DNA from: Allobosea sp. CS1GBMeth4
GTDB lineage: Bacteria > Pseudomonadota > Alphaproteobacteria > Rhizobiales > Beijerinckiaceae
Assembly (NCBI RefSeq): GCF_900185715.1
Contig: NZ_FYAS01000007.1
Coordinates: forward strand, 124,001 to 188,000
Direction: 5' to 3'
Length of the DNA stretch: 64,000 bases
Shown here: positions 3,536-30,903 of the stretch, piece by piece
How the letters are laid out: every line of letters begins with the position of its first letter
Numbering within the stretch: the first letter of the stretch is position 1
The notes under the pieces: generated by a model
Told to the model about the DNA's origin: nothing
What the model saw: only the letters and a program-made list of their open reading frames with translations
Database searches by the model: none
Made by a program: the position numbers and the translations under genes

Positions 3536-4731
3536 CACGCGGCCTTGCCCGCGACCTCGGCCGGCGTCAGCCCGACGAGCTCGGCATAGCGCTCCGAATC
3601 GGTGGCGCCCTCGGTCACGATGGCGAAGACGCGCGAGCCGGCGTCGAGCTTCAGCGCCGCCCGCGCCTGCGGATCGCGCAGCGCCGCGAGCAGCCCGGCG
3701 AAGCCGGCGGCGCCGCTCTCGCCGGCGACGATCGCCGGATCGCCGCCGACCGGGCGCGCCAGCCTGTTCATCGCCTCGACCGCGATATCGTCCTCGACCG
3801 TCATGAAGGCGTCGGCGACGCGCGACAGCACGCGCCAGGCGAGCGGCGAGGGGTCGTAGCAGTCGAGCATCGCCATCACCGTCGGCTCGCCATGCGCGGC
3901 CTTGGTCGGCCGTCCGGCACGGGCGCTCTCGAACAGACAGGCGGCGCGGGCCGGATCGACCACGGTGAAGATCGGCCTGGCCTCGCCGAGCGCCAGCGCC
4001 AGATGGGCCGCGCTCGCCGCGGCGATGCCGCCGACGCCGGCCTGGACGAAGACATGGGTCGGCGGCGCGGGCAGCTGGCGCAGGGCTTCGCGGATGATCG
4101 CGGTATAGCCCTGCATCACGAGCCCCGGAATGCGCTCATAGCCGTCCCAGGAGGTGTCGGAGACGACCGTCCAGCCACGTTCCGCCGAGACGCGGGCGGC
4201 CTCGACGACGGATTCGTCATAGGTGCCGTCGAAGCGGACGATCTCGGCGCCGAAGCGGGCGATCGCCGCGGCGCGCGGCTCGCTGACGCCGGCATGCACG
4301 AAGATCACCGACCTTGCGCCGACGAGACTGGCGCCCTGCGCGACCGAGCGGCCGTGATTGCCGTCGGTGGCGCAGGCGAAGGTCATCCCGGCGGCGATCG
4401 CGCGCACCTCGGGCGAGGTCAGCTCGGCTTCGTCGAGCGCACGCCCGAGGCGTTCGCTCGCGGCCTCAAGCACCAGCCGCGCCACGGCATAGGCGCCGCC
4501 AAGTGCCTTGAAGCTGCCGAGGCCGAGCCGCTGGCCCTCGTCCTTGAGATGCAGCGCGCCGAGGCCGAGCTCCGCGGCGAGGGCGGGCAGGGCCTGCACC
4601 GGCGTCGCCACATGCTCGGGCCGTCCGTCGAGATGCCGCTCGATCGCGTCGGCCCCGGCCGGGCCGAGCGTCTCCGCATCGACCGGATGGAGCGGCTGGC
4701 GAAAATCCGGGAGCTGGTTGAGCAGGAGCAT
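3535..4731 (-). CDS. dpaL: diaminopropionate ammonia-lyase
   Basis: This is a fold-type II PLP enzyme. The PLP lysine is K75 in GSFKALGGAYA, and TDGNHGRSVA is the substrate/cofactor asparagine loop. The order of motifs and the length (398 residues) match diaminopropionate ammonia-lyase, which splits 2,3-diaminopropionate (and serine/threonine weakly) to pyruvate or 2-oxobutyrate plus ammonia. I placed the start at 4731 because AGAGG lies six bases upstream and the protein then begins MLLLNQLPDF; a frame runs further upstream but would cover the promoter region. An Lrp-type regulator is divergent from it and a GST is coupled downstream. Confidence 0.83.
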   Translation of the reverse strand: MLLLNQLPDFRQPLHPVDAETLGPAGADAIERHLDGRPEHVATPVQALPALAAELGLGALHLKDEGQRLGLGSFKALGGAYAVARLVLEAASERLGRALDEAELTSPEVRAIAAGMTFACATDGNHGRSVAQGASLVGARSVIFVHAGVSEPRAAAIARFGAEIVRFDGTYDESVVEAARVSAERGWTVVSDTSWDGYERIPGLVMQGYTAIIREALRQLPAPPTHVFVQAGVGGIAAASAAHLALALGEARPIFTVVDPARAACLFESARAGRPTKAAHGEPTVMAMLDCYDPSPLAWRVLSRVADAFMTVEDDIAVEAMNRLARPVGGDPAIVAGESGAAGFAGLLAALRDPQARAALKLDAGSRVFAIVTEGATDSERYAELVGLTPAEVAGKAA

Positions 4732-10365: not shown

Positions 10366-10412
10366 CGTTTTCGTTTTCGCAAGCAATATTATCGTTTTCG
10401 CGCATCGCAGCA
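10366..10412. promoter_or_regulatory. candidate DeoR operator before the aldolase gene
   Basis: The gap holds repeated TTTTCG units: CGTTTTCGTTTTCGCAAG, then ATCGTTTTCGCGCATCGC. TTTCG-rich direct repeats are the usual site type for DeoR/GlpR proteins. Similar repeats lie at 11528-11566 beside the DeoR gene, which supports a shared regulator for the aldolase-transport genes. Confidence 0.5.
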
Positions 10413-10439
10413 TAATCCATGTTGCATCGCGCAATCGAG

Positions 10440-25546: not shown

Positions 25547-25573
25547 GCGTTGCGGGGCGACGGAGGACTGCCC

Positions 25574-25972
25574 TTGTCAAAGGCCGATCGGCCCCTGCCG
25601 GCCACGCGCTTCAGTTTCCGGCTCGACTTCTCGCCGGGCGGGCGTCTCGGCCCCGGCAAGGTGCAACTGCTGGAATCGATCTGCGAGACCGGCTCGATCT
25701 CGGCCGCCGGCCGCGCGATGAAGATGTCCTATCGTCGCGCCTGGCTGCTGGTCGACGATCTCAACCGCATTTTCCGGGTACCGCTGGTCGAGGCCCAGCC
25801 CGGCGGGGCCAAAGGCGGCGGCGCGCATCTCACCGCGCTCGGCCGCGAGGTCGTCGCCCATTACCGCGCGATCGAGGCGAAGGCGCTGGCGGCCGGTGCC
25901 GCCGAGATCGCGGAACTGCGCGCCGCGATTTCGCCGACCGCGCCCGAGCGCGAGCCCGGCAGGAAGGCCTGA
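25574..25972 (+). CDS. ModE-like winged-helix molybdate regulator without a sensor domain
   Basis: With a TTG start seven bases after GGAGG, the protein has 132 residues. It holds the ModE N-terminal winged helix (GPGKVQLLESICETGSISAAGRAMKMSYRRAWLLVDDLN) but lacks the two molybdate-binding Mop domains of full ModE (about 260 residues). Short ModE-like proteins of this kind are common in alphaproteobacteria. It converges on modC with four bases between stops, and a Mo-box lies before modA, so control of the modABC operon is likely. Confidence 0.85.
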   Translation: MSKADRPLPATRFSFRLDFSPGGRLGPGKVQLLESICETGSISAAGRAMKMSYRRAWLLVDDLNRIFRVPLVEAQPGGAKGGGAHLTALGREVVAHYRAIEAKALAAGAAEIAELRAAISPTAPEREPGRKA

Positions 25973-27773: not shown

Positions 27774-28580
27774 TCACGAGGACGAGGCCGGCTTGTTCAG
27801 CACCGTGAAGCCCTGCTTCTCGAAGCTGCCCTTGGCGCCGCTGCCACGCAGATAGGAGAGGAAGCCCTGCGCGTCCGGATTGCCCGACTCCCGGGTGATG
27901 GCGACGGGATAGACGATCGGCGGATGGCTCTCCTCCGGGAAGGTCGCGACCACCTTGACCTTCGGGTCGGCGGCCGCGTCGGTGGCGTAGACGATGCCGA
28001 GCGGCGCTTCGCCGCGCGAGACCAGCAGCAGCGCGGCGCGGACATTGTCGGCCTGGGCCAGCTTGTCCTTGACCTTGTCCCAGCCGCCGAGCTTCTCCAG
28101 CGCCGCCTTGCCGTATTTGCCGGCCGGCACCGACTCGACATTGGCCATGGCGAGCCGGCCGGAGCCTAGCACGGCGGCGAGGTCGACGCCGGGGGTGAGC
28201 GCCACCGCGGTCCTGGCGTCGGCGGGCGCGATCAGCACGATCCGGTTGGCGAGCAGGCTGACCCGGCTGTCGGGTCTGATCAGGTTCTTCCTCTGCGCGT
28301 AGTCCATCCAGTCCAGGTCGGCCGAGAGGAAAAGATCGGCCGGCGCGCCCTGTTCGAGCTGCTTCGCCAGCACATTGCTCGCCGCATAGGAGATCTTCGG
28401 CGCCGGCCTGCCGCTGTCCTTCGCCCAATTGCCCGCCGCCTCGTCGAGCGCGTTCTTCAGGCTCGCCGCGGCGAAGATCACCAGATCCTTGCCCTGGCCG
28501 AGGGCCGGGCCGGCCAAGGTGGCGCTGCCGATCAGCAGCACCGCAGTGAAACCCAGGAGGTGGCGGCGGTTCGATCGCAT
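27774..28580 (-). CDS. modA: molybdate ABC transporter substrate-binding protein
   Basis: The 268-residue protein begins at 28580 with a signal peptide (MRSNRRHLLGFTAVLLIGSA to LGQG). A longer frame would start inside the Mo-box. The ModA pattern is clear: VIFAAASLKNALDEAAGNW for oxyanion binding and ASNVLAKQLEQGAPADLFLSAD. It binds molybdate in the periplasm and heads the modABC operon. Several likely Mo enzymes exist in such bacteria, one of them encoded at 46179-48269. Confidence 0.95.
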   Translation of the reverse strand: MRSNRRHLLGFTAVLLIGSATLAGPALGQGKDLVIFAAASLKNALDEAAGNWAKDSGRPAPKISYAASNVLAKQLEQGAPADLFLSADLDWMDYAQRKNLIRPDSRVSLLANRIVLIAPADARTAVALTPGVDLAAVLGSGRLAMANVESVPAGKYGKAALEKLGGWDKVKDKLAQADNVRAALLLVSRGEAPLGIVYATDAAADPKVKVVATFPEESHPPIVYPVAITRESGNPDAQGFLSYLRGSGAKGSFEKQGFTVLNKPASSS

Positions 28581-28601: not shown

Positions 28602-28625
28602 CGCTATGTGCGAATGAATATAGCG
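28602..28625. promoter_or_regulatory. Mo-box (ModE operator) before modA
   Basis: The arms CGCTATGT (28602-28609) and ATATAGCG (28618-28625) form an inverted repeat with one mismatch and an eight-base spacer. This is close to the alphaproteobacterial Mo-box with TATA-rich arms. It ends 22 bases before the modA start, so a bound ModE-type protein would block transcription when molybdate is plentiful. Confidence 0.8.
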
Positions 28626-28820
28626 GCGGGCGACCAAAGGTCGAGTCCGATCGCCGCCGGCTGGGTAAGGTTGCCCAATGGGCGTGGCCGATCAAATGCC
28701 GCCCGCATCCGGTGCAACGGAACATCGCTGCGACGGTTGCGGGCGCGGCTGGGTTGCATGCGATGGGCAGCCCCGGCGCACTCCCATTGCCCACCGCCGG
28801 CTGCCACCGCCTGGGCCCGC

Positions 28821-28851
28821 AAAGAAAAAGGCCCACGCCGGAGCGCAGGCC
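28821..28851 (-). terminator. intrinsic terminator of the small RNA
   Basis: On the minus strand, GGCCTGCGC-TCCG-GCGTGGGCC forms a nine-pair stem with two wobble pairs and is followed by TTTTTCTTT. This is a standard Rho-independent terminator. Confidence 0.85.
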
Positions 28852-28906
28852 CAAGTCTAGGGAGGAAACGCCCAAGGAGGGCGCCACAGCATCGCTGCTG
28901 CGGTGC
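28821..28906 (-). ncRNA. alpha-r8/MmgR (suhB-type) family small RNA
   Basis: Read on the minus strand, a 5' hairpin (about 28880-28906) is followed by a second CCUCC-containing stretch. Next comes the core UUUCCUCCCU (complement of 28859-28868) with CUAGACUUGGGCC after it. It ends in a 9-pair stem with two G-U pairs (28830-28851) and a T-rich tail (28821-28829). The UUUCCUCCCU core is the conserved anti-ribosome-binding-site motif of the alpha-r8 family, whose MmgR member limits polyhydroxybutyrate storage in Sinorhizobium. Length is about 86 nt. A promoter lies directly upstream. Confidence 0.75.
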
Positions 28907-28911
28907 ACAGG

Positions 28912-28939
28912 ACATAGGATGCCCCCGATCGAGCCGCAA
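28912..28939 (-). promoter_or_regulatory. promoter of the small RNA
   Basis: On the minus strand TTGCGG (complement of 28934-28939) and CTATGT (complement of 28912-28917) are 16 bases apart. This gives a housekeeping-sigma promoter with an expected start near 28905. Confidence 0.5.
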
Positions 28940-29282
28940 GGGGGAAGGGACAGCAGGGCTGACCTTAATTTGGGCAAAGTGCGGTTTTTCGCGCCGATCT
29001 CGCGGAATCGCGCGAACCAAAAGGCGCGTGAGGCGAAACGCCGCGGGGAGAACGTTTGCCGAATCCGATTCTTCGCATGCGGGTGGCTTGCTGCCCGATG
29101 CGGGATTCTCTGCCGACCCGGGCGCCAGCCCATTTGCGACAGCACGCCTCGCGCCGGCATCCCGCGCTGCAACAAGCCGGCGGCCGGAGTTCCGGTCGAG
29201 GCGCAGAGGTTCGGCGGCGCCGGATCGCCGCGACCCGTGCGCTCGATAGGGCGATCGCCGAACCGGCCGGGTCGGTCAGCGA
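28940..29282. other. intergenic stretch without a recognised feature
   Basis: Between the small RNA promoter and the sulfurtransferase gene no gene with a family match, ribosome binding site or clear palindrome was seen. Sequence from 28965 to 29060 is less GC-rich than the surroundings and could hold a further promoter. Confidence 0.3.
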
Positions 29283-30137
29283 TCAGGGCCCCGCCGGTCC
29301 GGTCGCGACCGGGCGCTCGCTCGCGCCCCATTCGGCCCAGGAGCCGTCATAGATCGCGCGTGCCGGCTTGCCGATCGACTCGAGCGCCGTCGACAGGATG
29401 ACCGCCGACACGCCGGAGCCGCAGGTGGTCAGCACCGGGCGGTCGAGATCGACACCGGCGTCGCGGAAGGCGGCGACGATCGCCTCCGGCGCCTTGAGCT
29501 TGCCGTCCGCCACCAATGCGGAGGAGGGCAGGTTGAGCGCGCCCGGCATGTGGCCGGAGCGCAGGCCGGCGCGGGGCTCTGCCGCCTCGCCGCGGAAGCG
29601 GTCGGCCGGGCGGGCGTCGACCACCTGGATCGCGCCGCTCTCCAGCGCCCGCGCCACGTCGTCGATGTCTGCGACGGCGGAATGGTCGAGCCTCGCGGTG
29701 AAGCTGCGCGGCTTGCGCGGCTTCGGCGCTCCGTCCTCGACCGGCCGGCCTTCCGCCAGCCATTGCGGCATGCCGCCTTCCAGGATCACCACGTCCTTCG
29801 CGCCGAAGGTCTGGAAGGTCCAGCGCACCCGCGGCGCCGAGAACAGGCCGAGCCCGTCATAGACGACGATGCGCATGCCGTCGCCGATGCCCATGGCGCC
29901 GACCGCGGCGGCGAAGGCATCCGGCCGCGGCAGCATGTGCGGCAGATTGGAGCCCTCGTCCTTGATCACGTCGATGTCGAAGCGCACCGCGCCGGGAATG
30001 CGCTGCTGCGCGTATTCGGCGTTGGCGTCGCGCCCCTGCGCCGGCAGGTAGAACGAGCCGTCGAGGACGACGATGTCCGGCGCGTCGAGCCGCTCGGCCA
30101 GCCACTGGGTTGAGACGAAGATGTCGGGGCGGGTCAT
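29283..30137 (-). CDS. sseA: 3-mercaptopyruvate sulfurtransferase
   Basis: The 284-residue protein has two rhodanese domains: about 1-140, inactive, and 150-284, active. The catalytic cysteine is C239 in TTCGSGVSAV; the loop CGSGV(S/T)A marks mercaptopyruvate rather than thiosulfate specificity (CRKGV). It moves sulfur from 3-mercaptopyruvate to cyanide or thiols. The start at 30137 follows GAGGAA and gives the family length. The AlaX-type gene is 49 bases upstream on the same strand, so the two may be co-transcribed. Confidence 0.92.
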   Translation of the reverse strand: MTRPDIFVSTQWLAERLDAPDIVVLDGSFYLPAQGRDANAEYAQQRIPGAVRFDIDVIKDEGSNLPHMLPRPDAFAAAVGAMGIGDGMRIVVYDGLGLFSAPRVRWTFQTFGAKDVVILEGGMPQWLAEGRPVEDGAPKPRKPRSFTARLDHSAVADIDDVARALESGAIQVVDARPADRFRGEAAEPRAGLRSGHMPGALNLPSSALVADGKLKAPEAIVAAFRDAGVDLDRPVLTTCGSGVSAVILSTALESIGKPARAIYDGSWAEWGASERPVATGPAGP

Positions 30138-30186
30138 GCGCGGTTCCTCGGAAGTCAAGTCGTTACGGGATGTTCTGGCAGGAAAC

Positions 30187-30903
30187 TCAGGAGAGCGCGA
30201 TGCGCACGCGCCGGTTCTGCTTGCCCTTCTTCTCGACATCGGTGACCACGACCGCGCCGATCTCGGCGGTGTTGCGCACATGCGTGCCGCCGCAGGGCTG
30301 CAGGTCGATGCCCTCGATCGAGACCAGCCGGACCCGGCCCGAGCCCCGCGGCGGCTTGACCGACATGGTCTTGACCAGCCCGGGATTGGCGTCGAGCTCC
30401 GCGTCGGTGATCCAGCGCTCGGTGATCGCCGCGTTCTTTGCCACCAGCGCGTTGAGCTTCTCGGTCAGCTCGGCCTTGTCGAGCCCGCCTTCCGGAATGT
30501 CGAAATCGAGGCGACCGTCGCCGTCGCCGATCGCGCCGCCGGTGACGGGGTAGGGCAGCACGACGCTGAGCAGGTGCAGGGCCGTGTGGATGCGCATGCG
30601 CTTCAGCCGGCGCTCCCAGTCGAGCTTCGCCGTGACGCTTTCGCCGGCGGAGAGCGGAGCCTGCCCTTCGAGCGGGACGTGCAGGACGCGGCTCTTGTCC
30701 TCCGGGTCGTAGATCGCCGTGCCGATCGCGACCTGCGTGCCGTCGGCCCGGACCAGCACGCCGGCATCGCCCGGCTGGCCGCCGCCGGTGGCATAGAATA
30801 CGGTCCTGTCCAGCGCGATGCCGCCGCGCTCGTTGACGGCGACGACGGTCGCGGGCGTCTCGGTCAGGTAGGCGTCGGCCCGGAACAGCAATTCGGTCGG
30901 CAT
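30187..30903 (-). CDS. AlaX-type alanyl-tRNA editing protein
   Basis: The 238-residue protein resembles the editing domain of alanyl-tRNA synthetase. The zinc-site pairs are H106-x3-H110 in IHTALH and C204-x3-H208 in CGGTHVRN. GGQPGD near residue 41 is the usual start of the domain. Such free-standing proteins hydrolyse Ser-tRNA(Ala) or Gly-tRNA(Ala). AAGGAG lies six bases before the ATG at 30903; upstream extension has no support. Downstream is sseA on the same strand. Confidence 0.9.
   Translation of the reverse strand: MPTELLFRADAYLTETPATVVAVNERGGIALDRTVFYATGGGQPGDAGVLVRADGTQVAIGTAIYDPEDKSRVLHVPLEGQAPLSAGESVTAKLDWERRLKRMRIHTALHLLSVVLPYPVTGGAIGDGDGRLDFDIPEGGLDKAELTEKLNALVAKNAAITERWITDAELDANPGLVKTMSVKPPRGSGRVRLVSIEGIDLQPCGGTHVRNTAEIGAVVVTDVEKKGKQNRRVRIALS

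Follow-up and report, generated by a model that had tools for sequence, protein, structure and literature searches.

Organisation of the locus

The window analysed here, a stretch of 64,000 nucleotides from Allobosea sp. CS1GBMeth4 (the Bosea source genome below), carries on its minus strand a small RNA unit that lies between a sulfurtransferase frame and modA (Table 1). When the whole window was compared with 4227 Rfam families, a single match was found, to RF00519 (suhB/mmgR, alpha-r8), which spans model positions 1-77 and thus the full length of the model. The initial annotation had called this an alpha-r8/MmgR-type RNA and had named the covariance search beforehand as the check, and the claim was borne out at 60 bits against a gathering threshold of 41. 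Matches at the same place to SorY, a Betaproteobacteria toxic sRNA and anti-hemB were rejected as lying far under their thresholds, and alpha-r15 (AbcR, RF02345) gave no match to the window RNA even with a relaxed threshold. The promoter, 5' hairpin, conserved core and terminator described in the initial annotation were all found where it had proposed them, on the minus strand.

Judged by its sequence, the element is a genuine alpha-r8 (suhB/MmgR) sRNA gene, the second copy in this Bosea genome. It joins a known family of small regulatory RNAs, which mask the ribosome-binding sites of mRNAs, and has a sister copy and a conserved promoter of its own, so it is a real find but for the most part an expected one; the family and the kind of mechanism were already known, and what is new is one more well-supported copy.

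Table 1 Features of the sRNA unit and its neighbours in the window
Feature	Position	Strand	Remarks
modA, downstream neighbour, outside the sRNA unit	27777..28580	-	Pfam SBP_bac_11
ModE-type box of modA, CGCTATATTCATTCGCACATAGCG	28602..28625	-	13/14 consensus positions; best of shuffles 10
RF00519 match	28815..28889	-	60 bits, gathering 41, E 7.6e-10
Predicted sRNA transcript	28821..28905	-	Start inferred from -10 position, end from terminator tail
Intrinsic terminator	28821..28852	-	Stem 28852-28829, then a U-rich tail; C-G replaced by G-C in the stem, a compensatory change
Seed UUUCCUCCCU, unpaired	28859..28868	-	Invariant in 32 orthologues; same core proven to pair in Caulobacter SisA
Hairpin 2 (CGCCC/GGGCG), the consensus hairpin of the family	28869..28883	-	Invariant in 32 orthologues; within RF00519
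5' hairpin, peculiar to window copy	28884..28903	-	7 to 8 pairs retained in orthologues, outermost pair variable
TGCACCGCA, core of PhaR/AniA-type candidate site over predicted start	28899..28907	-	YGCRNYGCR in 30/32 orthologues
-10 element CTATGT, 16-base spacer	28912..28917	-	YTAYNT and 16-base spacer in 32/32 orthologues
-35 element TTGCGG	28934..28939	-	CTTG[CT] at same place in 32/32 orthologues
Imperfect dyad AAGGTCAGCCCTGCTGTCCCTT, putative operator	28945..28966	-	Just upstream of -35; position kept among orthologues
sseA-like sulfurtransferase frame, upstream neighbour	29283..30281	-	Pfam Rhodanese

Fold, promoter and conservation

Counted from the predicted start, the transcript would be about 83-85 nt long, close to the earlier estimate of about 86 nt. 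It is predicted to fold into three hairpins (z = -4.3), and none of 200 shuffled sequences folded as stably. As had been proposed, the conserved core lies between the 5' hairpin and the intrinsic terminator (28868-28859, minus strand), where this 10-mer is left unpaired. The relatives found via ModA are Bosea, and for comparison we used a set of 32 orthologues: the window copy and those of 31 other Bosea genomes. Across these, pairing was kept in 96.9% of cells, compared with 30-55% in shifted registers, and four pairs, located in the terminator and at the outermost position of the 5' hairpin, had changes on both sides. The hairpin 2 stem is identical in all 32 orthologues and is therefore uninformative on covariation. 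A second CCUCC, also noted in the initial annotation, is indeed present but is only partly exposed, UCCUU alone being in a loop and the rest in the stem of hairpin 2; since the Rfam consensus reads CCUUC at that place, the motif is not a family-wide feature.

Both the promoter and the terminator of the unit were kept among the Bosea orthologues, in agreement with the earlier view that the RNA has its own of each. A generic sigma-70 scan missed the promoter at 28939-28912, and the call therefore rests on conservation: TTGCGG and CTATGT, 16 bases apart as first described, have counterparts in 32/32 orthologues, so that the suggested comparison of the locus in related genomes yielded an orthologue with the same promoter spacing in each of the 31 other Bosea genomes. 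The upstream dyad, with its centre 39 bases before the -10 element, is likewise conserved in Bosea. Its exact form occurs at one place in the genome, upstream of the window sRNA, and at two mismatches the genome search added one further place and the same place on the opposite strand; as the genome holds no other mismatch-free site, the dyad was rejected as a regulon marker.

Predicted action and likely targets

The housekeeping-type promoter at 28939-28912 would yield an RNA of about 84 nt, with its 3' end set by the terminator of the unit. This alpha-r8 RNA would act in trans, probably together with Hfq, the gene for which is present in the source genome, and its unpaired seed would pair with Shine-Dalgarno sequences of the GGGAGGA type, the complement of the seed. 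Such pairing would block the translation of several mRNAs, and on statistical grounds the most likely target class is that of nutrient-uptake proteins. We put the probability that the window RNA is a trans-acting alpha-r8 RNA of this kind, made as an ~84-nt transcript from its own housekeeping-type promoter, probably Hfq-dependent and blocking translation of several mRNAs through its seed, at about 0.85. Transcription and Hfq dependence are inferred here, while pairing and repression are expected by analogy with Caulobacter SisA, which represses an mRNA by pairing of the same 10-mer with the 5' UTR, as proven by compensating mutations (PMC12559287). The likeness extends further: the alpha-r8 RNAs SisA-D of Caulobacter crescentus are sibling copies that have one common 10-mer and different promoters, as in Bosea (PMC12559287). 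For them, pairing of the seed with 5' UTRs of mRNAs has been proven (PMC12559287), whereas pairing in Bosea is predicted; their proven targets include a TonB-dependent receptor, and a further RNA, CrfA, serves as a sponge for these siblings (PMC12559287).

Outside both sRNA genes, the source genome has five exact AGGGAGGAAA sites, and four of these are found shortly before a start codon. To look at the target class more broadly, we compared genes preceded by GGGAGGA-N4-10-ATG (n=59) with those preceded by AGGAGGA-N4-10-ATG (n=48) in the same genome, both samples being taken in contig order save for the last eight GGGAGGA sites, which were picked mainly for the A that follows, with their products unseen. 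Substrate-binding protein families in Pfam accounted for about 24 of the 59 GGGAGGA genes, a count summed by hand from Pfam family summaries with overlapping families merged, and for 1 of the 48 AGGAGGA genes. The p value was 1.2e-6, or 1.2e-4 when only 30 controls were taken as real genes, the AGGAGGA set including some spurious reading frames. Duplexes of the seed with GGGAGGA target sites were predicted at -16 to -18 kcal/mol. In one genome from another family of the order the corresponding counts, classed by eye, were 4/28 and 0/23, a comparison that is only suggestive. The GGGAGGA variant recurred at genes for substrate-binding proteins that belong to several unrelated families, for example at L216 (DctP), L219 (TAXI), L271, L281, L287, L333, L340 and L362. 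One candidate, the livJ gene beside the orthologues, was rejected as a target, its leaders being without GGGAGGA.

It is a serious possibility, if somewhat short of even odds, that alpha-r8 is active but that the GGGAGGA enrichment reflects another anti-Shine-Dalgarno sRNA (alpha-r15 AbcR or alpha-r14 NfeR1) or translation strength. AbcR1/2 and NfeR1 of S. meliloti use anti-Shine-Dalgarno motifs to silence mRNAs for substrate-binding proteins (PMC8844928); one of these motifs, aSD1 of AbcR1/2, reads CUCCUCCC (PMC8844928). The window RNA resembles them in having such a motif, and their validated targets, transporter-component mRNAs including those of substrate-binding proteins (PMC8844928), are of the class predicted for Bosea alpha-r8. 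They constitute RNA families separate from alpha-r8, and carry two distinct (AbcR1/2) or three identical (NfeR1) anti-Shine-Dalgarno motifs, compared with one exposed 10-mer in the window RNA. Against this rival, the source genome has no alpha-r15 (RF02345) match, in a search that was also empty in all control genomes, and AGGAGGA, which is also a strong Shine-Dalgarno sequence, was found without such enrichment.

A possible link to PhaR/AniA and carbon stores

The window RNA shares its covariance model, its UUUCCUCCCU core, hairpin 2 and terminator with MmgR of S. meliloti, where MmgR is single-copy, in contrast to the two alpha-r8 genes of the Bosea source genome. In S. meliloti, the PHB-sensing repressor PhaR/AniA binds mmgR at CAATTGTGCACCGCAGCATTA, as found by EMSA (PMC12542648). 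Over the predicted start of the window copy lie 14 nt, TGTGCACCGCAGCA, identical to part of this proven site near the start of MmgR (PMC12542648), with weaker flanks in the window copy. Orthologues of the other copy in the source genome have the YGCRNYGCR core as well, in the promoter spacer (35/35) and a second time at the start (32/35), so that both Bosea copies carry a PhaR/AniA-type core, whereas the Caulobacter siblings are without a common promoter motif. As the core alone is common, with 74 occurrences in the window, only its fixed place counts, and part of its conservation in the window copy may be attributable to the 5' hairpin that it overlaps.

When scored with a matrix derived from the proven sites other than mmgR, the full site of the window copy, which has weak flanks, reached 5.1 and ranked 18 in the window; other copies of the window type scored mostly 6 to 15. 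Two phasin loci of the source genome reached 25-28, which shows that such a matrix is effective here. Repression of alpha-r8 by PhaR/AniA would thus be suggested by motif conservation, and for the window copy it is plausible but, because the score is only 5.1 though the core is fixed in 30/32 orthologues, weakly supported.

Other observations touch on the same regulator. At 10395-10437 two PhaR/AniA-type sites with 22-base spacing scored 17.9 and 11.9, which ranks them first and third in the window; they precede a 468-aa frame on the minus strand, resembling a tagatose-bisphosphate aldolase subunit and adjacent to a pfkB-like kinase, an arrangement that recalls the paired sites of phasin promoters. 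Phasin genes are present in the source genome, and the one phasin leader that was tested (L232) paired with the seed no better than shuffled sequences and was rejected as a seed target.

We consider it a tentative and rather doubtful idea that both Bosea siblings are under PhaR/AniA and form a general brake on nutrient uptake, substrate-binding genes having kept GGGAGGA to match the seed and the state of the carbon store setting uptake. If true, alpha-r8 would take in Bosea the role that AbcR plays in rhizobia. If the GGGAGGA variant is tuned to alpha-r8, this would offer a predictable target class for a family whose direct targets have seldom been proven except in Caulobacter, and would open the way to probing, with a few reporters, whether PHB stores are linked to nutrient uptake. 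The association of GGGAGGA with substrate-binding proteins is the part of this work that deserves follow-up.

Copies and genomic context

The other alpha-r8 copy of the source genome (contig C30, 27447-27522, 64.8 bits) is flanked by genes for an N-formylglutamate amidohydrolase and a suhB/hisN-type phosphatase. This is the usual place of alpha-r8 (PMC12559287), and most of the loci we read in other families of this order have it there too. The window copy lies elsewhere; a place beside the amidohydrolase gene is usual in single-copy species but does not define the family. Additional copies elsewhere in a genome are normal (PMC12559287, PMC1273637), and genomes of the same genus gave mostly two to five alpha-r8 matches. 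The two Bosea copies have an identical seed and differ in their 5' hairpins and promoters. It is very unlikely that the window copy is a degenerate, silent extra: a second copy does exist and the window copy scores slightly lower (60 vs 64.8 bits), but 31 other genomes retain its seed and hairpins, the spacing of its promoter and its terminator, with compensatory changes.

The position beside the molybdate operon had been described as an unusual place to look for this RNA. This did not hold, as the family is multi-copy and has no association with specific neighbouring genes (Corbino et al. 2005, PMC1273637), and most Bosea loci that were read have this sRNA 5-23 kb from modABC, beside tonB-exbD-exbB. 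Where Bosea flanks were read more widely, the common order runs alaX-sseA-modABC, with the sRNA 5-23 kb beyond and tonB-exbD-exbB after it; the sub-clade of the window has alaX-sseA, mostly followed by glutaminase and two more genes, before the sRNA and modABC; and in a third arrangement the sRNA adjoins an ABC exporter. Since the RNA and some 110 bases of its upstream sequence remain recognisable in all three gene contexts, the cassette appears to be an autonomous transcription unit, and its contact with modA a lineage-specific rearrangement within one sub-clade.

Nearly all relatives have, at 43-60 bases before modA, a ModE-type box similar to that of the window, and a modE-like gene lies at the opposite end of modABC (25550-25972, plus strand). 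The idea that the RNA is a cis-acting leader, attenuator or riboswitch of the molybdate operon that resembles suhB by chance, to which its same-strand position ahead of modA might lend itself, was rejected as extremely improbable, given the terminator between the two, the separate ModE-type box of modA and a shifting synteny, the promoter and RNA being unchanged at 5-23 kb from modABC in most Bosea loci read.

Further alpha-r8-like copies were seen in some Bosea genomes (L047, L088, L089, L094), which have other promoters and a common 5' part, CCTCGCCCTCGTAAGGGG..., and fall outside both conserved groups. In two other families of the order, tandem alpha-r8 copies stand by the amidohydrolase gene, at L117 (cores at 4419 and 4732) and L128 (4494 and 4696).
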